Below, piece by piece: positions 10,810 through 22,727 of a stretch of 64,000 nt of DNA. This stretch comes from Curtobacterium sp. MCLR17_032. GTDB taxonomy: Bacteria > Actinomycetota > Actinomycetes > Actinomycetales > Microbacteriaceae. Within the stretch, counting starts at the first letter, position 1; every line of letters starts with the position of its first letter. Below the pieces are notes generated by a model. It made no database searches. It was not told the DNA's origin and was given only the letters and a program-made list of their open reading frames with translations. The translations under genes were made by a program, and so were the position numbers. The stretch is taken from positions 2,170,001 to 2,234,000 of the forward strand of contig NZ_CP126268.1 of assembly GCF_003234795.2 (NCBI RefSeq), written 5' to 3'.

Positions 10810-13509
10810 ATGGAACTCACCGGTCGACGCACTGAGGTCGACCGGATCACGACCCTCGCCGTACTCCCCCGGGAGTCCGCGCTGGTCGTCGTCGGCGATC
10901 CCGGCTCCGGACGCACGAGCGTCCTCGACGCGGCCAGCAGCCGCGTCTCCCTCCCCGTCGTCCGCATCGGCGTGAACGGCAGCGAATCCCGCTGGCCGCT
11001 CGGTGGTGTGACGACGCTCTTCAGCGCACTCGACGACCCCCGGGCCGCCGCACACGTCTCCCGGATCCTCGGGACCGTGCGTGACGCGGACCCCGCGCAG
11101 GTCATCGTCGTGGCGCACGAACTCCTCGACACCCTGCGCACCCTCCAGATGGCGCCGACGCTGGTGCTCATCGACGACCTCGACCGGATGGACGCGGCGA
11201 GCCAGACGCTCATCGCGTTCCTCGCCGGCCGACTCGTCGGGACATCCCTCCGCGTCGTCGCCACGGTGGCGACCGTGCCGTCGGACAGCCCGCTCGCGGC
11301 CCTGCCGTCGCTGCGCCTGGCGCCCCTGCACCCGGACGAGGCACTGCTGCTCGCCCGGGAGCTGGCCGCCGACGACGCGAACGACGGTGTCCTGGCGGTC
11401 ATCGCCGAGCAGACCGCCGGCAACCCCGGTGTGCTCCGTGAACAGCTCGGCATGCTCCGCCGTGAGCAGCTGCTCGGCACGGAACCCCTCGTGCTGCCGC
11501 TGCGTCCCACCCCGACGACGGACCGCATCGTGGCACCCGTGGTCGCGGCGGTCCCCGGACGCGATCTGGACGTCCTGGCCCGCCTCGCCCTGGTCCCCGT
11601 CACGAAGGCGGGCGGTCCGGAGTGGGACCGCGACGTCGTCGAGGACCTCGCGTCCGTCGGGCTCGTCACGGTCCGCGGCCAGTCGATCTCGGTCCGGTCC
11701 CCGCTCGTGCGCTCCTTCCTGCACTGGCGGATGACGGCCCGCGACCGCCGCGCGGCACACGCCGAGCTCGCCGTGTCCGCAGCCGCTCACGACCCGCGTG
11801 CGGCGTCGTGGCACCGGAGCTTCACGGACGACCTGCCGGACGCCGTGGCCCTGCTGCACGCCGCCCTGGCGTACGCGGCGGACGGCGACTCGGCGGCGGC
11901 GGTGACGCTCACCGAGCGTGCGCTGCACGTCGGCACCCGGTCGGAGCGCGAGCACCTGGCGCTCCTCGCGGTCGCCGAGGTCCTGCTCGCCCACCGCCTG
12001 CTCGGCTACGCAGCGCGCTACCTCGCCGCGATCGCGCCGTTCCGGTCCCGCCTCGACGACGTGCGCCGCCTGCGGCTGCACTACTCGGTGCAGTACCTCA
12101 GCGGCGAGGCCGTCGAGGCGGACGAGCTGCTCGTCCCCGCCGACGCGACCGACGCCGCCGAGGCGGAGGCCGTCACGGGCCTCCTGGCCATGGTCGCCAG
12201 CTTCCGGGCCGAGGCCTGGGAGCTGGAGCACGCCCGCGACCTGCTGCAGCGTGCCGAACCGTTCGAACCGGCACTGCCGCCGCACACGGCGCAGATCCTG
12301 CAGGCCGCACGGCAGATGGTCGCCGCGGTCGACGGACACCTGCCGCCGGACCGGGACCTGCACGACGGTCTCGCGACGACCAGCCTGCTGGCCCTCTCCG
12401 ACCCGACGCTGCTGCTGCTCGCCCACGCGCTCAGCCTGTCCGAGCGGTACCGCAGTGCCCGCCGGGTGTTCGCGCTGGTCCTGGCACGCTCGTCGCACAC
12501 CGCTCCGGTGTGGGTCGAGGCCGCCCGGTACCTGACCGCGGAGAACGAGGTGCGCTCGGGCAACTTCCGGCTCGCCCTCCGCGCGATCGACGCCTGGGAG
12601 ACCGGGTCGAGCGTCGTCGAGCGACTGCGGGAGCCCTCGCGGGCCATCGCGATCGCTTGGCGGCACTTCCTCGAGGGTCGCCCGGTGGCCACCCTCGAGG
12701 TGCTCGACCGGTGCCTCGCGCTCCGCTCCACGAGCGGCCTCTGGGGTGCGACGGCGAAGCTGCACGCGTTCCGTGGCCGGGTCCTGCTGTTCGAGGGTCG
12801 TGCCGAGGAAGCCGCGGCGGCACTCGAGACCGCCGACGCGATCGGCCGGACGGTCCGGAACCCGACGGTGCTCCGGCACCTCGGCGACCTGATCGAGGCG
12901 TACGTGCGGCTCGGCCGGACCGACGACGCGCGGACCACGACGGCCCGTCTCGCCGCCGACCACCGGGCACACCCGTCGCGCTGGGGCGCCCTCGTCCTGG
13001 CACGGAGTCTGGCACTCGTCAGCGACGACACCACCCGCGAGGCCGCACGACACCGTGCGCTCGAGCTGTTCGAGCCCACGGACTCGCAGTTCGAGCGCGC
13101 CCGGACCCTCGCCGCGCTCGCGTCGACGGGCACCGGTCCGGACCGCGCACGGCTCGGGGCAGCGTCCGCCGCGGCCTACGAGGCAGCGGGGCTCCGTCGT
13201 CCGCTCGCCGCCCCGCAGGGCGTCGCCGCGATGCCGCCGGCCGTCGGGTCGTCGGCGCTCCGGCAGTCGCAGTTCGACTCGACGCCGTCGCCGACGACGC
13301 CGCGGAGCGCACCGGACGGCACGCCGGTCCTCACCCTGCTCACCGCCGAGGAGCAGGCAGTGGTCCAGAAGGTCACGGAGGGCTACCGGAACCGCGAGAT
13401 CGCCTCGTCGCTGTACATGTCGCAGCGGACGGTGGAGCTCCGACTCACGCAGATCTACCGGAAGGTCGGGGCGCGCTCGCGCTCGCACCTGGTGGCGCTG
13501 CTGGGGTAG
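10810..13509 (+). CDS. large LuxR-family regulator with N-terminal ATPase domain (LAL-like)
   Basis: 899 residues. The N-terminal P-loop domain has a Walker A-like GDPGSGRT (29-36) in which the usual lysine is arginine, and a Walker B TLVLIDDLDRMD (117-128). A long helical, TPR-like middle (about 300-780) is typical of signal-integrating STAND regulators. The C-terminus (about 840-895) is a GerE/LuxR helix-turn-helix, LTAEEQAVVQKVTEGYRNRE through SQRTVELRLTQIYRKVG. It faces the polysaccharide locus tail-to-tail with the glycosyltransferase, and the exporter lies on its other side; either could be a target. The inducer is unknown. The start has no obvious ribosome-binding site. Confidence 0.88.
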   Translation: MELTGRRTEVDRITTLAVLPRESALVVVGDPGSGRTSVLDAASSRVSLPVVRIGVNGSESRWPLGGVTTLFSALDDPRAAAHVSRILGTVRDADPAQVIVVAHELLDTLRTLQMAPTLVLIDDLDRMDAASQTLIAFLAGRLVGTSLRVVATVATVPSDSPLAALPSLRLAPLHPDEALLLARELAADDANDGVLAVIAEQTAGNPGVLREQLGMLRREQLLGTEPLVLPLRPTPTTDRIVAPVVAAVPGRDLDVLARLALVPVTKAGGPEWDRDVVEDLASVGLVTVRGQSISVRSPLVRSFLHWRMTARDRRAAHAELAVSAAAHDPRAASWHRSFTDDLPDAVALLHAALAYAADGDSAAAVTLTERALHVGTRSEREHLALLAVAEVLLAHRLLGYAARYLAAIAPFRSRLDDVRRLRLHYSVQYLSGEAVEADELLVPADATDAAEAEAVTGLLAMVASFRAEAWELEHARDLLQRAEPFEPALPPHTAQILQAARQMVAAVDGHLPPDRDLHDGLATTSLLALSDPTLLLLAHALSLSERYRSARRVFALVLARSSHTAPVWVEAARYLTAENEVRSGNFRLALRAIDAWETGSSVVERLREPSRAIAIAWRHFLEGRPVATLEVLDRCLALRSTSGLWGATAKLHAFRGRVLLFEGRAEEAAAALETADAIGRTVRNPTVLRHLGDLIEAYVRLGRTDDARTTTARLAADHRAHPSRWGALVLARSLALVSDDTTREAARHRALELFEPTDSQFERARTLAALASTGTGPDRARLGAASAAAYEAAGLRRPLAAPQGVAAMPPAVGSSALRQSQFDSTPSPTTPRSAPDGTPVLTLLTAEEQAVVQKVTEGYRNREIASSLYMSQRTVELRLTQIYRKVGARSRSHLVALLG

Positions 13510-13589: not shown

Positions 13590-14894
13590 TCAGACGGTGG
13601 CCGCCCGCCGCGTGGGGCTGTGCCAGACCCCGCTGGAACCACCGCGGAAGGCGAGGAACAGGGCGCGGAGGCACAGGTACGAGTCGAGGACCCGGAGGAG
13701 CGGGAAGGTCAGGCCGTACAGGACGTAGACGCCGCGGCGGGAGACCACCGCGACGACGATGGTGAGCAGGTAGTCGGGCAGCAGCACACCGACCACGATC
13801 CCGGTGACCGGGTCGACGGCGAGCACGGCGTCCGGGAACCCGGCGCCCATGCCGAGCGCCACGAGGACCGCAGCGGTCCCGGCGAGCGCCACCGCGGGCA
13901 GCAGCAGGAGCATCATCACGCTCGACGTCAGGAGCTCGAGCACGAACAGTCCGGTGGCGAGTCCGAAACGGCGGAGGCCGAAGCGGTGGCGCCGGAGGGT
14001 CTGCCAGAAGCCGAGGTTCCAGCGTCGGACCTGTTTCGCGTAGTCGCGGAGGGTGTCGGGGTCCTGCGTGTAGGCGATGGCGGCGCCGGGGCGGAACGCG
14101 ACGCGGCCGAGCTCCTTGGCGTGCACCTCGAACGTCATGTTGAAGTCCTCGATGGCCAGCCCCTCGGCGGTGATGTCGATGTCGCGGAGGATCCGGGTGC
14201 GGTACATCGAGGCGAAGCCGGGGACGATGGCGACGACGTTGGCGGCGGGGGCGGCCTGGCCGAACTTCTGCAGGTACTGGACGGCGACGTAGACGCGTTC
14301 GCGGTACGCGACGAGCAGGCGGCCGGAGAAGGTGGGTGCGCGGGGCTCCAGGATCGTGGTGGCGCGACCGGCGACGGCGACGACGTCGGGGGCGGAGAAC
14401 TCCGGCAGCCCGGTGGTGAAGTAGTCGGTGGACAGGTGGGTGTCGGCGTCCAGGAGCATCATCACCTCGAAGCGCTCCGGGATCGAGAAGTGCTCGATGG
14501 CGGCCGCGATGGCACCGGCCTTGCCGCGGTTCGGCTGCAGGTCGTACACCTGGGCACCGGCGGCGCGGGCGATCTCGACGGTGCGGTCCGAGGACCCGTC
14601 GGAGACGACGAGGATCTGCTCGGGTGGCAGGTGCTCGGCCGCGGAGCGGATGGTGCGTTCGATGACGAGCTCCTCGTCGTGCGCGGCGACGAGGACGGCG
14701 ACGTCGGCGGTCGTCGGCGGTCGGTAGCCCCGCGGGACGGGTGCTGGCATGCCGCGGCGGTGGGCCCGACGACCGCGGCCGTCGGCGCCGACGCGGTGCA
14801 GACGGGCGGTGACGACCCGGGTCGCGCCGACCGTGGTCCAGAGGATCGTGTTGACGCCGAGGACGAGCACGAGGGCGACGACGAACGTGAGCAT
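13590..14894 (-). CDS. membrane processive family-2 glycosyltransferase (polysaccharide synthase)
   Basis: 434 residues. One N-terminal membrane helix (1-22) is followed by a cytosolic GT-A domain with DGSSD (99-103), the metal-binding DAD (149-151), an acidic pair ED (249-250) as catalytic base region, and Q-V-R-R-W (288-292). Q(Q/R)xRW is the hallmark of processive synthases such as cellulose, hyaluronan and PgaC/IcaA enzymes. At least four hydrophobic C-terminal segments would form the export channel. The product cannot be fixed from sequence. Neighbouring glmS, UDP-sugar dehydrogenase and deacetylase suggest an amino-sugar or uronic-acid-containing polymer. The ATG is preceded by TAGCGT with a 6-nt gap. 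Confidence 0.88.
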   Translation of the reverse strand: MLTFVVALVLVLGVNTILWTTVGATRVVTARLHRVGADGRGRRAHRRGMPAPVPRGYRPPTTADVAVLVAAHDEELVIERTIRSAAEHLPPEQILVVSDGSSDRTVEIARAAGAQVYDLQPNRGKAGAIAAAIEHFSIPERFEVMMLLDADTHLSTDYFTTGLPEFSAPDVVAVAGRATTILEPRAPTFSGRLLVAYRERVYVAVQYLQKFGQAAPAANVVAIVPGFASMYRTRILRDIDITAEGLAIEDFNMTFEVHAKELGRVAFRPGAAIAYTQDPDTLRDYAKQVRRWNLGFWQTLRRHRFGLRRFGLATGLFVLELLTSSVMMLLLLPAVALAGTAAVLVALGMGAGFPDAVLAVDPVTGIVVGVLLPDYLLTIVVAVVSRRGVYVLYGLTFPLLRVLDSYLCLRALFLAFRGGSSGVWHSPTRRAATV

Positions 14895-15279
14895 GGGGCG
14901 ACGCTAAGCGGCGCGGCGGAGGCCCCGCACCGCATTCCCGCACCCGGGGCCGCATGCGCTTGCGGGAGTCCGCATGCGGTCCCGCAGTCGCCGCCACGGT
15001 GCTGCGGGGCACCGCAAGACCGGCTCCGTGGCGTTGCCGGCGGGTGGCCCGACCCGTGATGGTGGCAACGCACCGACCGCCGGCCCCGTCATCGGGGCAG
15101 GACCGCGTACCCGAGATCGGTACCCGACCGGCCGCACCCGGACCGCCACCGTCCGCCCCCGCCTGATCCGGGGACGGACGGTGGCCCGGACACGGCCCAC
15201 CCGATCCCGCGGTCCCACCCGACGGCGGTCGGTGCCTGCCGGGACTTCCCGGTTGTGTCCCGACCCGAGGGGAACCCGC
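14895..15279. promoter_or_regulatory. divergent control region of the polysaccharide locus
   Basis: It separates the leftward glycosyltransferase from the rightward sugar-nucleotide operon. Seen here: TAGCGT at 14906-14901 (minus), the leaderless -10 of the glycosyltransferase; and two copies of the palindrome CGCATGCG at 14951-14958 and 14971-14978, 20 bp apart. The second copy is centred in a larger inverted repeat, TGCGGGA...TCCCGCA (14961-14986). These look like operator half-sites on one DNA face. A GAGGGGAAC ribosome-binding region lies just before the ATG at 15280. Confidence 0.5.
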
Positions 15280-16692
15280 ATGTCCATCGCACCTCCGTCG
15301 TCCGACGCCCTGTCGGTCCGCACGTCGCCGGTCGCTCCGACGACGACGACCGTCCCGACGTCCCCGGACGTCTCGGCCCCCCTGAGCAGCAGCGTGCCGC
15401 TCACCCGGGGCACCACCGCACACGGCGGGACCCGCGGCTTCGAGTTCGACGTGGCGATCGTGGGTCTCGGCTACGTCGGGCTGCCGACGGCCCTGGCGTA
15501 CCACCACTCGGGCACCTCGGTGATCGGCCTCGACGTGTCGCAGCGCCGTCTCGAGACCATCCGCTCCCGCGGCGCCGACCTGCTCGACGACGACCGGGTG
15601 CGGCTCGAGTCCGCGTTCCTGGCGGACGACTTCGTCCTCACCGACGACCCGTCGATGCTCGCCCGTGCGGCGGCCGTGATCGTCTGCGTGCCGACGCCGG
15701 TCGACGAGTACCTGGTGCCGGACCTGGCGATCCTCCGCGGTGCCGCCGCGACGGTCGTCGAGCACGCCGTGCCCGGGCAGCTCCTGATGCTGACGAGCAC
15801 CACCTACGTCGGGTGCACCGACGACCTGCTCGTGCAGCCCCTCACCGAGCGTGGGCTGCTGCCGGGTCGGGACGTGTTCGTCGCGTTCAGCCCGGAGCGC
15901 ATCGACCCGGGCAACGCCTCGGTCGCGCACGAGGACGTGCCGCGTGTGCTCGGTGCGGCGACGCCCGAGTGCGCCGAGATCGCGGACGAGATGCTCGGCC
16001 GCTACGCCCGGGTGCACCGCGTGCCCTCGCTCGCCGCGGCCGAGATGACGAAGCTGCTCGAGAACACCTTCCGCGCGGTGAACATCGCGCTGGCGAACGA
16101 GTTCTCGGACATCTGCCGGACGATGGGCATCGACGTGGCGGACGTCGTGGACGCCGCGGCGACGAAGCCGTACGGGTTCATGGCGTTCATGCCGGGCCCG
16201 GGCGTCGGCGGTCACTGCATCCCCTGCGACCCGCACTACCTGCTCTGGCAGCTCAAGGCCGACCGCCAGGCCGCGCCGATGATCACCCAGGCGATGACCG
16301 AGATCGCAGCCCGTCCTGGTCGGGTCGTCGACCGCACCCGCGAGGTCCTCTCGGACGCGGGCCGTGGCCTCCGCGGTGCCCGGGTGCTCGTCGTCGGCAT
16401 CGCCTACAAGCGTGACGTCGCTGACCTCCGCGAGTCCCCCGCACTCGAGATCCTCGAGGGTCTGATCGCCGCCGGTGCCGAGGTCGGGTTCGCCGACCAC
16501 CGCTTCGACTCGGTCCGCCTGCACGACGGCACGGTCCTCGACGACGTCGTCGACGAGACCGCGTTCGCTGCGGACGTCGTGCTGCTGCACACCCGGCACA
16601 CCGACGCCGACCTGTCCTGGATCACCGGCGAGCAGCTCGTGATCGACACCACCTACCGGGCTGCGGACCTCACCGGCCGCATCCTCCTCTGA
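15280..16692 (+). CDS. UDP-sugar 6-dehydrogenase, WbpA/TviB-like (UDP-HexNAc type by motif)
   Basis: 470-residue NAD-dependent enzyme oxidising the C6 of a UDP-sugar to the uronic acid. A 50-residue Thr/Ser/Pro-rich N-terminus precedes the Rossmann motif VAIVGLGYVGLPTA (58-71). The catalytic cysteine is Cys313 in GVGGHCIPCDPHYL. GGHCIP is the form found in UDP-N-acetyl-hexosamine dehydrogenases (WbpA, WbpO, TviB), whereas classical UDP-glucose dehydrogenases usually read FGGSCFPKD. UDP-GlcNAc or its epimers are therefore more likely substrates than UDP-glucose, but this needs assay. The next gene starts 11 nt downstream, so they form an operon. Confidence 0.88.
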   Translation: MSIAPPSSDALSVRTSPVAPTTTTVPTSPDVSAPLSSSVPLTRGTTAHGGTRGFEFDVAIVGLGYVGLPTALAYHHSGTSVIGLDVSQRRLETIRSRGADLLDDDRVRLESAFLADDFVLTDDPSMLARAAAVIVCVPTPVDEYLVPDLAILRGAAATVVEHAVPGQLLMLTSTTYVGCTDDLLVQPLTERGLLPGRDVFVAFSPERIDPGNASVAHEDVPRVLGAATPECAEIADEMLGRYARVHRVPSLAAAEMTKLLENTFRAVNIALANEFSDICRTMGIDVADVVDAAATKPYGFMAFMPGPGVGGHCIPCDPHYLLWQLKADRQAAPMITQAMTEIAARPGRVVDRTREVLSDAGRGLRGARVLVVGIAYKRDVADLRESPALEILEGLIAAGAEVGFADHRFDSVRLHDGTVLDDVVDETAFAADVVLLHTRHTDADLSWITGEQLVIDTTYRAADLTGRILL

Positions 16693-16703
16693 AAGGGAAC
16701 GCC

Positions 16704-17708
16704 ATGAAGTCCATCGTCACCGGAGGTGCCGGGTTCATCGGCAGCCACCTCGTCGAACGCCTGCTCGCCGACGGCGACGACGTCGTCGTCCTCGACGACT
16801 TCTCGACCGGTCGTGCCGACAACCTGGCCGCCGTCGCCGGACACGAGCGACTGCGCGTCGTCGAGGGCAGCATCCTCGACCGCGAGCTCGTCGCCGAACT
16901 GGTCGCCGGTTCGGACCGGGTCTTCCACCTGGCCGCCGCGGTCGGCGTGAAGCTCATCGTGGACCACCCGCTGCAGGGGCTCCGCACGAACATCCACGGC
17001 AGCGAGAACGTCCTGGACGCCTGTGTCGCCGCCGGCGCGAAGCTGCTCCTCGTCTCCACCAGCGAGATCTACGGCAAGAACACCGCCGACGCGCTGCACG
17101 AGACCGCCGACCGCGTGCTCGGTTCGCCGCTCGTGGCCCGCTGGACCTACGCCGCGGCGAAGGGCATCGACGAGGCCTTCGCGCACGCCTACTTCAAGGA
17201 GTACGGCCTGCGGGTCGCCATCGCCCGTCCGTTCAACACGGTCGGTCCGCGCCAGACCGGTCGCTACGGCATGGTCGTCCCGAACCTCGTCGGTCAGGCC
17301 GTCCGCGGCGAGCCGCTGACCGTGTACGGCGACGGCGTCCAGTCGCGCTGCTTCTCGTTCGTCGGCGACGTCGTCCCCGCGATGGTCGCGCTCATCGAGC
17401 ACGACGCGGCCTACGGCGAGGCGTTCAACCTCGGCGGCGAGCGCGAGATCAGCATCGCCGAGCTGGCGGAGCTCGTCATCGACATCGTCGGTTCGGACAG
17501 CCAGATCACCTACGTCCCCTACGACGAGGCGTACGGCGAGGGCTACGAGGACATGCGCCGTCGTGTCCCGGACAACACGCGTGCCAAGGCCGCCGTCGGG
17601 TTCGCCCCGGTGACCCCCCTGGAGGCCGTGGTCCGGTTGGTCGCGGAGGACGTGCGTTCCCGCGCGGTCGCCGACTCGACTCCGGCGAGCGCGACGGCGG
17701 CGGTCTAG
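16704..17708 (+). CDS. NAD-dependent nucleotide-sugar epimerase/decarboxylase (extended SDR)
   Basis: 334-residue extended short-chain dehydrogenase. GGAGFIG (7-13) binds NAD; the catalytic set is Ser120 in the TSE segment and Y149-x3-K153 (TYAAAKG). The C-terminal RPFNTVGPRQTGRYG and the VYGDGVQSRCFSFVGD segments match UDP-glucose 4-epimerase, UDP-glucuronate decarboxylase and TviC/WbpP relatives. Together with the preceding dehydrogenase it may make a 4-epimerised or decarboxylated uronic UDP-sugar; the exact reaction is not determinable. AAAGGGAACGCC before the ATG is a good ribosome-binding site. Confidence 0.88.
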   Translation: MKSIVTGGAGFIGSHLVERLLADGDDVVVLDDFSTGRADNLAAVAGHERLRVVEGSILDRELVAELVAGSDRVFHLAAAVGVKLIVDHPLQGLRTNIHGSENVLDACVAAGAKLLLVSTSEIYGKNTADALHETADRVLGSPLVARWTYAAAKGIDEAFAHAYFKEYGLRVAIARPFNTVGPRQTGRYGMVVPNLVGQAVRGEPLTVYGDGVQSRCFSFVGDVVPAMVALIEHDAAYGEAFNLGGEREISIAELAELVIDIVGSDSQITYVPYDEAYGEGYEDMRRRVPDNTRAKAAVGFAPVTPLEAVVRLVAEDVRSRAVADSTPASATAAV

Positions 17709-17710
17709 CC

Positions 17711-19540
17711 GTGTGCGGCATCATCGCGGCGCGGGTGGCGGACGACGCCACCCCGTACCTCCTGGACGGGCTGGAGCGTCTGGAGTACCGCGGCTACGAC
17801 TCGGCCGGAATCGCCGTCCGCACCAGCACCGGCCGCACCGAGACGATCCGTTCGGTGTCCCGCGTCGGCGACCTGCGCACGCTGGTCGCCGCCCGCTCCG
17901 GTGACCCGTTCACGGGCATCGGCATCGGCCACACCCGCTGGGCGACGCACGGCGCCGTCCGTGAGACGAACGCGCACCCGCACGCCGACTGCTCCGGTCG
18001 GATCAGCGTCGTGCACAACGGCATCATCGAGAACGCGGACCTGCTCCGCGAGCAGCTGAGCGCCCAGGGACACGTGTTCGTGTCCGAGGTCGACTCGGAG
18101 GTCATCACGCACCTCGTCGAGCGTGCCCTGGCGGTCGACCCGGACCTGATGCTCGCGGTGCAGATCGCGACCGCGCAGCTCGAGGGCTCCTGGGCCATCG
18201 TGGTCCTCGACGCCCGGGACGGCCGGATGGTCGTCGCCGCCGACCGGTCCCCGCTCGTGGTGGCCCGTGCCGCCCGCGGTGACTTCGTCGCGAGCGACAT
18301 CGGTGCGATCGCCACGTGGGCGGAGACCTTCGTGGCGCTCCGGGACGGGGACGTCGTCGAGCTCGGCGAGAGCTGGACGTGGTCCTCCCGCGGCGAGGTC
18401 GTGGCGGTGCCGTTCGCGACACCGTCGCCGTTCGCCGCCGAGGCGCTCGAGCTCGGTGACCACACCGACCACATGGCGAAGGAGATCGAGGAGCAGCCCG
18501 CCGTCGTCGCGGAGATCCTCGACCGGATCGCCGGCCGCGCGGTCGACGGCTCGATGTGGCGCGGCCTCGGGCTCGCGCCGTTCGAGCGCGTCGCCGTCGT
18601 GGCGTGCGGGACCTCGTTGAACGCCGGGCAGGTCATCGCGACCGCGCTCCGCGGACTCGGCGGTGTCCCCACCGACACCGTCGTCGCCAGCGAGGCCGAC
18701 CAGGCCGTCCTGACGCCCGGCACCCTGGTCGTCGCGATCAGCCAGTCGGGCGAGACCGCGGACGTTCTCCGCGCGCTCGACCGGTTCGCGGACCAGTACC
18801 AGGTGCTCGCGTTGACGAACAACCTGCACTCGTCGCTCGCCCGTCGGGCCGACGCGGTGCTCGACTGCCACGCCGGTCCGGAGATCGGTGTCGCCGCGAC
18901 GAAGACGTTCACGGCGCAGGTCGTCGTCGGCGTCTCGGCGATGATCTCCGCACTGGTGGCGTCCGGCCGGATCGACCGCTCGCGTGCACTGGCGCTCGTG
19001 GGCGACATGCAGCGGCTGCCGGGCCTCCTGGCCGGCGCGGCCGAAGCGTCCCTCGACCGGATCCCGCTGCTCGTCTCGAGCGTGCGCGACGCCTCCGGGT
19101 TCCTGTTCCTGGGACGTGGGGCGGGCCTCCCGTTCGCCGCCGAGGGTGCGCTGAAGCTCAAGGAGCTGTCCTACCGGTGGGCCGAGGCCTACCCGGCCGG
19201 CGAGCTCAAGCACGGCCCGCTCGCACTCGTCACCGACGGCACCCCGGTGGTCGTCGTCGACAACGGCGAGCACAAGATCCAGGCGAGCGTCGCCGAGGTC
19301 CGCGCCCGCGGTGGCTTCGTCATCACCATCGGTGGTGTCGGCGCCGACGTGCCCGCGCTCGGTCGCGACGCCGGCCGGCTGCTCTCCCGACGGACCGACG
19401 TGACCGACCAGGGCATGTCGCTCTGGGGGCCGCTCGAGTCCGTCGTCCCCCTCCAGATGCTCGCCCGCGAGCTCGCGCTGCAGCTCGGCTGCGACGTGGA
19501 CAAGCCCCGCAACCTCGCGAAGTCGGTGACGGTCGAATGA
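17711..19540 (+). CDS. glmS: glutamine-fructose-6-phosphate aminotransferase (isomerizing)
   Basis: 609-residue GlmS making glucosamine-6-phosphate, the first step to UDP-GlcNAc. The GTG-encoded Met is followed by the nucleophile Cys2 (CGII). Glutaminase motifs include EYRGYDSAGIA, IGHTRWATHG and HNGIIEN. Two SIS domains follow (VACGTSLNAGQ; ISQSGETADVLRAL), and the C-terminus is AYPAGELKHGPLAL to DVDKPRNLAKSVTVE. It begins only 2 nt after the epimerase stop and overlaps the deacetylase start, so it is embedded in the sugar-nucleotide operon rather than next to glmM or ribosomal genes. Whether another glmS exists elsewhere cannot be seen; a dedicated second copy is possible. Confidence 0.95.
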   Translation: MCGIIAARVADDATPYLLDGLERLEYRGYDSAGIAVRTSTGRTETIRSVSRVGDLRTLVAARSGDPFTGIGIGHTRWATHGAVRETNAHPHADCSGRISVVHNGIIENADLLREQLSAQGHVFVSEVDSEVITHLVERALAVDPDLMLAVQIATAQLEGSWAIVVLDARDGRMVVAADRSPLVVARAARGDFVASDIGAIATWAETFVALRDGDVVELGESWTWSSRGEVVAVPFATPSPFAAEALELGDHTDHMAKEIEEQPAVVAEILDRIAGRAVDGSMWRGLGLAPFERVAVVACGTSLNAGQVIATALRGLGGVPTDTVVASEADQAVLTPGTLVVAISQSGETADVLRALDRFADQYQVLALTNNLHSSLARRADAVLDCHAGPEIGVAATKTFTAQVVVGVSAMISALVASGRIDRSRALALVGDMQRLPGLLAGAAEASLDRIPLLVSSVRDASGFLFLGRGAGLPFAAEGALKLKELSYRWAEAYPAGELKHGPLALVTDGTPVVVVDNGEHKIQASVAEVRARGGFVITIGGVGADVPALGRDAGRLLSRRTDVTDQGMSLWGPLESVVPLQMLARELALQLGCDVDKPRNLAKSVTVE

Positions 19541-21162
19541 CCAAGGACCAGTCCTTCAACCGCCTGACGGTGATCCTCGCCGTCCTGGCGGCCGTGGCGA
19601 TCGTCGTCACGGGTCTCCTCGGAGCCGCCCCGGCACGCGCCGCGACGGTCACGAAGCCCGTCACGGTCAGCCTGACCTTCGACGACGGCGACGCCGATCA
19701 GATCCCGGCCGCGCAGGTGCTGCAGCAGAACGGCCTGACCGGCACGTTCTACATCATCACCGGGTACCTCAACGCCCCCGGCTACATGCAGCAGTCGGAC
19801 CTGGCGACCCTCGCGGCCGCCGGCAACGAGATCGGTGGCCACAGCGTCACCCACCCCGACATGTCGGCGCTGTCCCAGGCCGAGGCGCAGCGGCAGGCCT
19901 GCCAGTCGCGTGCCACGCTGTCGTCGTGGGGCTACACCGTCCGGAGCTTCGCCTACCCCTTCGCGGAGTCGACCAAGAAGACGCGTGACGCCGTCCGCGC
20001 CTGCGGGTACACCAGCGCCCGCGGCCTCGGCGACGTGCAGACCCCGTACGACTGCACCGGCTGCGTCACGGCGGAGACCCTGCCGCCCCGCAACGCCATG
20101 CTGACCCGGGCACCGAGCCAGGTCGAGGCGGACTGGACCCTGGCCGACCTGCAGAAGCAGGTCACCCAGGCGAAGACCGACAGGGGCGGCTGGGTGCAGC
20201 TCACCTTCCACCACATCAGCGACGACACCTCGCTCGACCCGACGACCTCACCGGCCCTGTTCGCGCAGTTCGCCCAGTGGCTCGCCGCGTACTCGGCAGA
20301 CCCGGCGAACGCCACCACCGTCAAGACGGTCGGCGACGCGGTCGGCACCCCGGTGCAGCCGGTCGTGCAGTCACCGGTCCCCGGACCGGCAGCACCCGGC
20401 GTCAACGCCGTGCAGAACCCGTCGTTCCAGACGACCTCCTCCACCAGCCCGAGCGGCCAGAAGTGCTGGCAGTACGGCGGGTACGGGTCGAACACGGCGG
20501 CGTTCAGCACCGTCAGCCCGGGTCGCACCGGCACCACCACCAAGGCGACGTCGCTCACCGTCAGCGACTACACGGACGGCGACGCCAAGTGGCTGCCGAC
20601 GTTCGACCTCGGCGACTGCGCCCCCACCGTCGTCGCCGGGCACACGTACTCGCTCCGCGAGTACTACAAGGCGAACACGGTGACGCAGTTCACGGTCTAC
20701 CTGCGCGACTCGACCACCGGGTCGTGGCACTACTGGACCTCGAGCCCCTGGTACGCCTCGGCCACCACGTGGACCCAGGCGGTGTGGACGACGGACCAGA
20801 TCCCGGCCGGGTTCAACGGCATCAGCTTCGGCCTGAACCTGTTCACCAACGGCACGCTGACCACCGACGACGTCGCCGCCTACGACACGGTCGGTGCGCC
20901 GCCTCTCTCGACCACCACGACGACGACGAACAGCGCGACCACGTCGGCGAAGACGAGCAGCAGCGTCAGCCGGATCGCCCCGGCCGTCGACGCCCTGGCC
21001 GTCCGGTCCCGCGCGGTCCTCGGGCAGCTCGACACGTCGGGCATGGCGACCCCGCTCGACACCCCGGCGCAGCCCGCCGGACCCTCGGTGCCCACCCCGG
21101 CGGCGCCCGCCGCTCCGGCAGCGCCCGCAGCGCCCGCAGCGCCCGGCACGATCGGCCGGTGA
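19537..21162 (+). CDS. secreted polysaccharide deacetylase (NodB domain) with C-terminal beta-sandwich-like domain
   Basis: 541 residues. A signal peptide (helix about 10-30, probable cleavage after APARA at 35) leads to a carbohydrate esterase 4 domain. Motif 1 is TFDDGD (Asp49, Asp50), motif 2 HSVTH (His102 and His106 as metal ligands), motif 3 SFAYPF, and motif 5 LTFHHI. After a Pro linker, residues 290-430 (NPSFQ..., QKCWQYGGYG) look like a carbohydrate-binding beta-sandwich. A Thr/Ser tract and an Ala-Pro repeat tail follow. It would remove acetyl groups from an extracellular N-acetylated polymer. Start chosen by the ATGA overlap with glmS. Confidence 0.88.
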   Translation: MTKDQSFNRLTVILAVLAAVAIVVTGLLGAAPARAATVTKPVTVSLTFDDGDADQIPAAQVLQQNGLTGTFYIITGYLNAPGYMQQSDLATLAAAGNEIGGHSVTHPDMSALSQAEAQRQACQSRATLSSWGYTVRSFAYPFAESTKKTRDAVRACGYTSARGLGDVQTPYDCTGCVTAETLPPRNAMLTRAPSQVEADWTLADLQKQVTQAKTDRGGWVQLTFHHISDDTSLDPTTSPALFAQFAQWLAAYSADPANATTVKTVGDAVGTPVQPVVQSPVPGPAAPGVNAVQNPSFQTTSSTSPSGQKCWQYGGYGSNTAAFSTVSPGRTGTTTKATSLTVSDYTDGDAKWLPTFDLGDCAPTVVAGHTYSLREYYKANTVTQFTVYLRDSTTGSWHYWTSSPWYASATTWTQAVWTTDQIPAGFNGISFGLNLFTNGTLTTDDVAAYDTVGAPPLSTTTTTTNSATTSAKTSSSVSRIAPAVDALAVRSRAVLGQLDTSGMATPLDTPAQPAGPSVPTPAAPAAPAAPAAPAAPGTIGR

Positions 21163-21163
21163 C

Positions 21164-21976
21164 GTGCGGAAGACACCCCAGCCCCGACCCCGGGAGACCC
21201 GCCTCCGCGGCTCCCGGGGCCGGGGCGTCCGGCTGCGCAGGGCGGCGGCCCTCGTCGGCACGCTCGCGCTCACCGCGGTCCTCGCCGGCTGCGGCAGCCC
21301 GTCCGGCGGTGGAGCGGTCGCCCGCACCTACCCGTGGCACACCAGGATCGTCTCCACCACGTTCTGGGTCGGCGAGGTGTTCGACCCGGACGCCGACGAC
21401 GGCAGCCAGGTCTACTCCACCTACGACGACGACTGGCAGGGCAGCTACGGCGGCTGCGACGGTGTGATCGTCAAGCGCATCTGCCAGACCGAACGCCGCA
21501 CGGCCGGCAACGGGTACTTCCCGGTGCACATGAAGCCGAAGGAGAACCCGTTCTACCTCGACGTGCCGTACGACGACGTCAACGACCGCATCGGCTTCCG
21601 TGACCGGGACCGGGTGGTGCCCTGGGCCGGCGACACCGCCTACCGGAAGCACCGCGGCGACGACGGCTTCAGCTACCTCAAGAACCGGTGGGTCCAGCTC
21701 ACCAAGGACGGACGCACCTGCTACGGCCAGGTCCAGGACGCCGGCCCCGGCACGTACCACGACAGCGCCTACGTCTTCGGCTCCACGAACGCGCGGCCAG
21801 CCAACAAGCGGTACAACGGCGCCGGGGTGGACGTCTCCCCCGCGCTGAACGGCTGTCTGCACTACGCCGAACTCGACGGCGAGGACGACCGGATCGCCTG
21901 GCGGTTCATCGAGGCCGACAAGGTCCCGAACGGCCCCTGGCGCCGGGTGATCACGACCAGCCAGGTCTCCCAGTGA
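21164..21976 (+). CDS. unclassified lipoprotein, possible double-psi beta-barrel domain
   Basis: 270 residues. A basic N-terminus and hydrophobic segment end in the lipobox AVLAGC (Cys43). The mature part is Trp/Tyr/Asp-rich with four further cysteines (98, 107, 186, 231) able to form two disulfides. The stretch CYGQVQDAGPGTYHD followed about 25 residues later by GVDVSPAL resembles the paired aspartates of RlpA/expansin-type barrels (D192 and D223), which bind or cut cell-wall polysaccharide; that fold is my inference. It begins 1 nt after the deacetylase stop, so it is the last gene of the operon. I do not recognise a named family. Confidence 0.75.
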   Translation: MRKTPQPRPRETRLRGSRGRGVRLRRAAALVGTLALTAVLAGCGSPSGGGAVARTYPWHTRIVSTTFWVGEVFDPDADDGSQVYSTYDDDWQGSYGGCDGVIVKRICQTERRTAGNGYFPVHMKPKENPFYLDVPYDDVNDRIGFRDRDRVVPWAGDTAYRKHRGDDGFSYLKNRWVQLTKDGRTCYGQVQDAGPGTYHDSAYVFGSTNARPANKRYNGAGVDVSPALNGCLHYAELDGEDDRIAWRFIEADKVPNGPWRRVITTSQVSQ

Positions 21977-22007: not shown

Positions 22008-22727
22008 TTGACCTCCCTGCCCGCCTCCGCCGTGTTCGCCGCCCTGCTCATCGGCGCCGTGCTCCCCCTCGTGCCGTTCCTCGGCCGGATCGCCCGCCTG
22101 GCCGCGACGATCGTGCACGAGGTCGGGCACTGCGTCGTCGTGGTCCCCTTCGGTGGCCGTATCCGCCGCATCGACCTGCACCCGGACGGCTCCGGCGAGG
22201 CCTGGGTGCAGCTCGGCCGCGTCCCGGGAGCGGTCCGCTGGCTGGTGCGGCTGCTCAACCTGTTCGCCGGCTACAGCGCACCGATCTGGGCCGGTGTCCT
22301 GCTCGTCACCGGGGCGGTGGTCGGCTCGCCCTGGCTGCCCGTCGCCGTGCTCGGCGTCGTGGGCCTGGTCGCGCTCCTGTTCGTCCGGAACTGGTTCGGG
22401 CTGCTCGTGGTGATCGGGTTCGACGCGCTCGCCGTGTGGGTCGCCGTCCGCCCGTCGGACCTGACCCTGCTGGTCGTCGCGGCCCTCGGCGCAGCGCTCC
22501 TCGTCGACGGACTGCGCTCCCTCGTGCAGGTCGTCCGGTGGCTGTTCACCGGAGCACGGGTGCAGACCGACTTCCACATCGCGGCCGCCGAGATGCGTCT
22601 GCCCGCGGTCGTCTGGTTCGTGCTGTTCCTGGCGGGCAACGGCGTCGCGGTGTGGGCGGCCCGTGGCCCACTGCTGGCGGTCGGCGAGACCGTCCTGACC
22701 GGCATCCGGGCGCTCGTCGGCTCCTAG
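22008..22727 (+). CDS. M50-family (site-2-protease-like) membrane metallopeptidase
   Basis: 239-residue polytopic protein with the zinc motif HEVGH (His37, Glu38, His41) in its first conserved membrane segment. A short basic loop (RIRRIDLHPDGSGEAW) is followed by at least five further hydrophobic helices. It lacks PDZ and CBS domains, so it belongs with the small M50B-like proteins of actinobacteria, whose substrates are mostly unknown. The third metal ligand, normally an Asp in an NxxPxxxxDG motif, is not obvious. The start is a TTG. It lies 31 nt after the lipoprotein gene but seems to have its own promoter. Confidence 0.8.
   Translation: MTSLPASAVFAALLIGAVLPLVPFLGRIARLAATIVHEVGHCVVVVPFGGRIRRIDLHPDGSGEAWVQLGRVPGAVRWLVRLLNLFAGYSAPIWAGVLLVTGAVVGSPWLPVAVLGVVGLVALLFVRNWFGLLVVIGFDALAVWVAVRPSDLTLLVVAALGAALLVDGLRSLVQVVRWLFTGARVQTDFHIAAAEMRLPAVVWFVLFLAGNGVAVWAARGPLLAVGETVLTGIRALVGS

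Follow-up and report, generated by a model that had tools for sequence, protein, structure and literature searches.

Within a 64,000-nt window of the Curtobacterium sp. MCLR17_032 genome (positions 2170001-2234000 of the 3.71-Mb single-contig genome), a compact, conserved group of genes is a genuine variant of the exopolysaccharide systems that depend on a synthase, and literature text searches returned no description of this gene set. Five tightly packed rightward genes, encoding a UDP-N-acetylhexosamine (UDP-HexNAc) dehydrogenase, a short-chain dehydrogenase/reductase (SDR), GlmS, a NodB-type deacetylase and a lipoprotein, are spaced by 11, 2, -4 and 1 nt and lie divergent from the gene of a glycosyltransferase family 2 (GT2) synthase, with 385 nt between the synthase and dehydrogenase starts. 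An earlier, sequence-only reading of this DNA had listed these six genes, and the reading frames and gaps match its set, order and spacing exactly; its six-gene unit stands, although it overlooked a LuxR-type regulator, an operator array and, in relatives, partners of the glycoside hydrolase family 18 (GH18) type. Its proposal of an exopolysaccharide-type unit is likewise upheld by the conserved gene set, the synthase class, the amino-sugar supply and the secreted deacetylase. On balance, we consider it probable, with clear reservations, that the system makes a chitin- or hyaluronan-like polymer in which HexNAc is joined by a second unit, originating from UDP-N-acetylglucosaminuronic acid (UDP-GlcNAcA) and possibly N-acetylxylosamine (XylNAc), and that this polymer is de-N-acetylated and remodelled outside the cell.

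The genes form a conserved unit. Across an even sampling of the family (150 genomes, 85 genera), a synthase orthologue scoring above 340 bits was present in 17, the genome itself included, the next match reaching 82 bits, and lipoprotein matches above 290 bits occurred in 16, every one of them among the 17 synthase genomes; at E 0.001 the lipoprotein search gave matches in 20 of the 150, and four weak partial ones were excluded. Two further genomes of the same genus in this sample had neither synthase nor lipoprotein. Seventeen family loci were fetched, and one (L025), with a weak synthase match and none of the other genes, was left out of the counts. Across the 16 other synthase loci, the dehydrogenase and SDR were both found in all 16, the lipoprotein and NodB in 15 each, the regulator in 14 and GlmS in 11, some of these matches being partial. 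The search for this gene order in Microbacteriaceae that the sequence-only reading had called for thus recovered a conserved unit.

Beyond the family, searching named genomes with a profile of the lipoprotein yielded 181 relatives, and the best 80 of these, a choice biased to close relatives, were analysed as named loci. They span Microbacteriaceae, Arthrobacter/Pseudarthrobacter, Aeromicrobium, Nocardioides (both loci with the lipoprotein alone), Nakamurella, Prescottella, Pseudonocardia, Lentzea, Arsenicicoccus and others. Synthase, dehydrogenase and SDR occur together in 70 of the 80, and 67 are complete, holding all five core genes (synthase, dehydrogenase, SDR, NodB and lipoprotein). A dehydrogenase and SDR with no link to the synthase, the outcome named beforehand as fatal to the proposed unit, is the opposite of what was found, as all 70 named loci with the synthase also carry both. 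Among the 67 complete loci, 62 have these two genes on one strand and less than 200 nt apart, while the synthase is divergent from and near the dehydrogenase in 38, as in the window, on the same strand in 28 and in neither arrangement in one; GlmS and the regulator are each present in 32 of the 67. Because other genera also have the homologues together, in a mostly unchanged order, their association goes beyond chance. Furthermore, pairwise identities of synthase, dehydrogenase and SDR over 65 loci correlate at 0.58-0.73.

At the level of donor-sugar supply, the dehydrogenase groups by sequence with the UDP-HexNAc rather than the UDP-glucose class. Its best match in the PDB is Cap5O (177 bits, 7.2e-51), an archaeal N-acetylmannosamine (ManNAc) dehydrogenase scoring 170 bits and CalS8 118 bits, whereas entries named UDP-glucose dehydrogenase reach at most 90 bits. 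GGHC as opposed to GGSCF marks HexNAc as opposed to glucose dehydrogenases, and GGHC[IL]P is present in all 68 homologues (GGHCIP in the window) and GGSCF in none. The two other members of this enzyme family in the genome are 29-30% identical to that of the unit. Supply of amino sugar by GlmS, as first proposed, is substantiated by a score of 564 bits against TIGR01135 (cut-off 418) and by the enzyme being a second copy, 40% identical to another full-length glmS homologue elsewhere in the genome.

The SDR finds its best match among solved SDRs in the human UDP-glucuronate decarboxylase UXS1 (4lk3; 207 bits, the next different protein scoring 163), with which it has STSE and QxR segments in common in the pairwise alignment; of 71 SDR homologues, 70 retain the motif S-[TS]-S-E. 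4-Epimerases usually lack the Glu of this motif. The alternative that the SDR is a C4 epimerase, converting UDP-N-acetylglucosamine (UDP-GlcNAc) through UDP-GlcNAcA to UDP-N-acetylgalactosaminuronic acid (UDP-GalNAcA), so that the polymer would hold GlcNAc and GalNAcA, or the uronic unit only, and stand nearer to Vi/b-Cool chemistry, is possible but unlikely. It draws on a match of 139 bits to the UDP-glucose 4-epimerase 4zrm and on the Bordetella BB2925/BB2924 pair of dehydrogenase and 4-epimerase, for which an excerpt of PMC12407052 reports UDP-GlcNAcA C4 epimerisation as demonstrated; against it stand, besides the shared motif, the HexNAc 4-epimerases WbpP and WbgU, at 95-103 bits well below UXS1, and the TviC model PRK15181, at 79.5 bits against a cut-off of 760. 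A TviC-type C4 epimerase was rejected on these scores, and the TviB/TviC-like pair of the sequence-only reading gives way to a decarboxylase-like SDR.

The synthase carries DAD (149-151), IED (248-250) and QVRRW (288-292), and full-length homologues keep DxD in 68 of 69, ED in 68 of 69 and QxxRW in all 69. In an AlphaFold2 model (mean pLDDT 89.5), C-terminal membrane helices span residues 309-346, 362-384 and 389-417, and hyaluronan synthases are the nearest solved folds; alignments for folding comprised 46 of 70 synthase and 59 of 98 lipoprotein open reading frames (ORFs), together with the window's own sequences. Motifs and C-terminal helices, along with the Glyco_trans_2_3 match, support the class originally assigned, a processive GT2 polysaccharide synthase.

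It is improbable that this enzyme makes a plain GlcNAc polymer, chitin-like or resembling poly-N-acetylglucosamine (PNAG) and deacetylated to a chitosan-like product, with the dehydrogenase and SDR serving another glycan. A NodB deacetylase and GH18-type partners would suit such a homopolymer, and PgaC_IcaA is the top NCBIfam match of the synthase, below its cut-off; however, the two donor enzymes accompany the synthase in every one of its 70 named loci, closely spaced on one strand in nearly all complete ones, and the 57 bits scored by the synthase compare with a cut-off of 422.3 for the PNAG equivalog TIGR03937. A plain PgaC/IcaA-type PNAG synthase was rejected on that comparison.

Equally important are the secreted components. 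Pfam backs the general class of all unit genes except that of the lipoprotein. NodB scores 78.1 bits against Polysacc_deac_1 (gathering score 23.1) and has TFDD and HSVTH in the window, while of 83 homologues 65 have TFDD, 67 have HxxxH and 33 fit a less strict C-terminal His pattern; these features support its assignment, as predicted from sequence, to secreted polysaccharide deacetylases of carbohydrate esterase family 4 (CE4), as had been claimed. Its C-terminal module has two matches within one ORF of locus L017. Neither Pfam nor NCBIfam has a match for the lipoprotein, which shares 88-90% identity with its counterparts in Curtobacterium sp. MCPF17_052 and C. salicis; its predicted fold is a double-psi beta-barrel of the expansin, RlpA and barwin class with invariant Asp residues. 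An hhalign comparison with Pfam DPBB_1 gave a probability of 3.3% and P 0.013 (0.21 for an unrelated control), and the alignment sets D192 on the Asp of DRGP; in the profile comparisons, 6 of 20 DPBB_1 and 4 of 25 GH75 sequences were dropped before alignment. A GH75 chitosanase (PF07335) is not claimed, the residue patterns being alike by eye and the profile comparison giving 0.5% probability. Given the predicted barrel and its invariant Asp, a role of the lipoprotein beyond binding the polymer, in cutting or loosening the chain, is possible. A GH18-type gene lies within 24 of the 80 named loci.

A role of the unit in altering teichuronic acid or peptidoglycan of the cell wall, instead of making an exopolysaccharide, is very doubtful: NodB also matches peptidoglycan deacetylases of NCBIfam below cut-off, and double-psi barrels include RlpA-type proteins, which act on peptidoglycan, but the core unit holds a processive synthase with a hyaluronan-synthase fold, and its patchy distribution (17 of 150 family genomes) is unlike that of housekeeping wall genes.

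Two side observations concern the distribution of the lipoprotein. Many of 18 mostly Arthrobacter-type loci have a second, divergent copy behind the synthase gene, and one genome of a distant family of the phylum (G304) holds three distant relatives (L119, L121, L123; 140-157 bits).

With respect to regulation, the gene convergent with that of the synthase belongs to the unit and is its candidate regulator gene; the protein combines an AAA ATPase domain at its N terminus with a LuxR-type helix-turn-helix at its C terminus. A homologue adjoins the synthase in 14 of the 16 family loci (some partial) and is present in 35 of the 70 named loci holding synthase and dehydrogenase. In 42 intergenic regions from divergent loci (the window and 41 others), CCGCA half-sites are enriched, with 108 CCCGCA against 16 expected and 79 ACCGCA against 8.4 expected, and the palindrome TGCGG-N4-CCGCA occurs inside or at most 50 bp from the divergent region in 28 of the 42, at a density of 1.95 per kb in that region versus 0.012 per kb elsewhere in the same loci. 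A spacer of 4 nt gives 32 matches, spacers of 0-3 and 5-10 nt give 0-4, and 11 nt gives 12. The 64-kb window holds two palindromes where 0.27 are expected, and since 4 of 100 shuffles also reach two, weight is placed on the comparison across loci. There, a palindrome stands upstream of synthase or dehydrogenase in 25 of 35 loci with the regulator as against 3 of 35 without it (Fisher 8.9e-8, a value that overstates the case because the genomes are related). From these patterns in the sequences, TGCGG-N4-CCGCA between the divergent promoters is the likely operator of the neighbouring regulator, a large ATP-binding LuxR-type (LAL) protein.

Several further sites and regulator genes were observed. 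In 18 named loci, mostly of the Arthrobacter type (L048 to L113), 56 additional genes for large ATPase regulators of the LuxR type border the cluster, one of them Pfam-tested. Elsewhere in the Curtobacterium genome, a palindrome at L187:6257-6270 (genome position 1432256) has half-sites close by and precedes, by about 130 bp, the gene of another large GT2 synthase (L187:6402-8849; 1432401-1434848; 815 aa), whose top NCBIfam match is cellulose synthase, below cut-off; this gene is a possible further target of the regulator, at genome-wide site numbers that are at chance level. Identical palindromes (TGCGGTTTCCCGCA) occur at L188:3190 and L189:3057 (genome positions 1822189 and 1396556), the former about 70 bp before the gene for a probably secreted protein and the latter at the 5' end of the longest ORF for a surface protein with an Ig domain.

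Despite this support, several points weigh against the proposed system. The evidence consists of genes and their comparison, from which we infer the sugar composition of the polymer product, its chemistry, the decarboxylation by the SDR and what the lipoprotein does. On the enzymatic side, the top NCBIfam models of the SDR are 4,6-dehydratases (180 bits for LegB, 161 for the RmlB type), and the UDP-xylose synthase model comes after them at 143.5 bits, all below cut-off; the UXS motif YDEGKR, present in 4gll, occurs in none of the 71 SDR homologues (YAAAKG in the window), its Arg is not shared in the UXS1 alignment, and the strict YxxxK pattern is found in only 52 of the 71. A 4,6-dehydratase is unable to act on a uronic acid, and decarboxylation of UDP-GlcNAcA to UDP-XylNAc is for that reason the likeliest step. 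The dehydrogenase, moreover, scores 197 bits against ManNAc dehydrogenase models of NCBIfam versus 152 against TviB, all below cut-off; since no UDP-GlcNAc 2-epimerase is among the unit genes annotated with Pfam and NCBIfam, N-acetylmannosaminuronic acid (ManNAcA) is mildly disfavoured. GlmS is missing from 35 of the 67 complete loci and is thus accessory, the window's own unit is without a GH18 gene, and in the larger GH18-type group three members go unmatched by Pfam GH18.

On the comparative side, synthase, dehydrogenase and SDR are not together in 10 of the 80 named loci; of these, four sit on short or cut stretches (L049, L073, L088, L111), two resemble second copies in genomes that, by record names, also yielded a complete locus (L095, L096), and four have the lipoprotein only (L047, L077, L084, L102). 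Over the same 65 loci, identities of the lipoprotein show weak correlation (0.16-0.33) with those of the synthase, the dehydrogenase and the SDR, so the lipoprotein may move or duplicate independently. In a phylum-wide sample of 296 genomes, the lipoprotein was found in three (the genome itself and two distant matches) and the synthase, at E 1e-60, in the genome itself alone, both searches scoring few candidates per genome; the unit therefore cannot count as typical of actinobacteria in general. Regulator and operator counts stem from related, non-independent genomes, only one of 12 loci has a palindrome upstream of the gene for the regulator, and the whole genome has 11 palindromes where the reversed control pattern occurs 9 times, which puts those outside the cluster at chance level.

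Compared with known systems, the unit shares with Pga/Ica (PNAG) a membrane GT2 synthase with QxxRW and a NodB-family deacetylase acting outside, but adds the dehydrogenase/SDR pair and GlmS, has no PgaA or PgaD/IcaD match among its genes in Pfam or NCBIfam, and has a synthase far below the PNAG cut-off. It differs from Has (hyaluronan) in the HexNAc class of its dehydrogenase and in its additional SDR, deacetylase, lipoprotein and, in relatives, GH18 enzyme. Like Vi antigen and b-Cool, it has a UDP-HexNAc dehydrogenase followed by an SDR, here decarboxylase-like rather than TviC-like, yet with one processive synthase in place of several glycosyltransferases (five for b-Cool in the excerpt of PMC12407052). 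A precedent for the proposed chemistry is the Bacillus pathway, in which, according to part of PMC5078965, a UDP-GlcNAc 6-dehydrogenase and UXNAcS make UDP-XylNAc; the two enzymes are likened by chemistry, not sequence, and that part mentions no processive synthase. The Gram-positive Pel cluster, as presented in a portion of PMC7112168, likewise combines a synthase-dependent polymer with a deacetylase, whereas the GT2 enzyme here has the membrane fold of hyaluronan synthases. Excerpts of other reports concern a different actinomycete cluster set (PMC13390465), a polyketide locus (PMC8779670) and a survey of synthase-dependent operons (PMC7112194), whose excerpt gave no match for hyaluronan.

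Table 1. Features of the unit and its surroundings, in window positions.
Feature	Position	Strand	Evidence
Gene of the LAL regulator, 899 aa, which may control the unit	10810..13509	+	Pfam AAA_16 2.4e-11, GerE 1.1e-10
Processive GT2 polysaccharide synthase, 434 aa	13590..14894	-	Pfam Glyco_trans_2_3 6.2e-18
Palindrome TGCGG-N4-CCGCA, candidate operator	14961..14974	.	Enrichment across loci
Second palindrome TGCGG-N4-CCGCA, candidate operator, 42 bp from the first	15003..15016	.	Enrichment across loci
UDP-HexNAc 6-dehydrogenase family, 470 aa	15280..16692	+	TIGR03026 7.7e-101, above cut-off
Extended SDR, 334 aa, nearest solved relative UXS1	16704..17708	+	4lk3 2.6e-60
Second GlmS (glutamine-fructose-6-phosphate transaminase)	17711..19540	+	TIGR01135 3.9e-169, above cut-off
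Secreted CE4/NodB polysaccharide deacetylase with C-terminal module, 541 aa	19537..21162	+	Polysacc_deac_1 7.4e-22
Lipoprotein, predicted double-psi beta-barrel, 270 aa	21164..21976	+	GTG start, lipobox LAGC

For the dehydrogenase, the tabulated ATG start fits, the longer mechanical ORF beginning at 14974. Downstream, a gene for a Peptidase M50B-like membrane protein (22008-22727, same strand) adjoins that of the lipoprotein.

In the mechanism that we propose, the second GlmS would enlarge the pool of glucosamine-6-phosphate and UDP-GlcNAc, the dehydrogenase would oxidise UDP-GlcNAc to UDP-GlcNAcA, and the UXS-like SDR would convert the latter into a second donor, most likely UDP-XylNAc by decarboxylation. 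The single hyaluronan-synthase-like GT2 enzyme would polymerise the UDP-sugars and extrude the chain across the membrane; outside the cell, the NodB enzyme would strip N-acetyl groups, and the double-psi-barrel lipoprotein, together with a GH18 enzyme in relatives, would bind or cut the chain. The LAL-type regulator would probably control the unit via the TGCGG-N4-CCGCA sites between the divergent promoters. A bolder version, tentative and unlikely as it stands, is an undescribed class of polymer in which the hyaluronan-synthase-like enzyme alternates GlcNAc with XylNAc, or for which it uses XylNAc alone (an acetamido-xylan); loss of N-acetyl groups would turn the polymer into a polycation, and the double-psi-barrel lipoprotein, as a member of a new family active on glycans, would trim it, under a LAL regulator reading arrays of TGCGG-N4-CCGCA.

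By joining donor synthesis, polymerisation, deacetylation, remodelling and regulation, one compact unit renders these proposals directly testable. If they hold true, a patchy set of soil and plant actinobacteria, including Curtobacterium, Microbacterium, Cryobacterium, Arthrobacter, Nakamurella and Prescottella, would share a matrix polymer system of their own, and its study could reveal a pentosamine-containing polymer as well as a function for a lipoprotein family that stands outside Pfam and NCBIfam.

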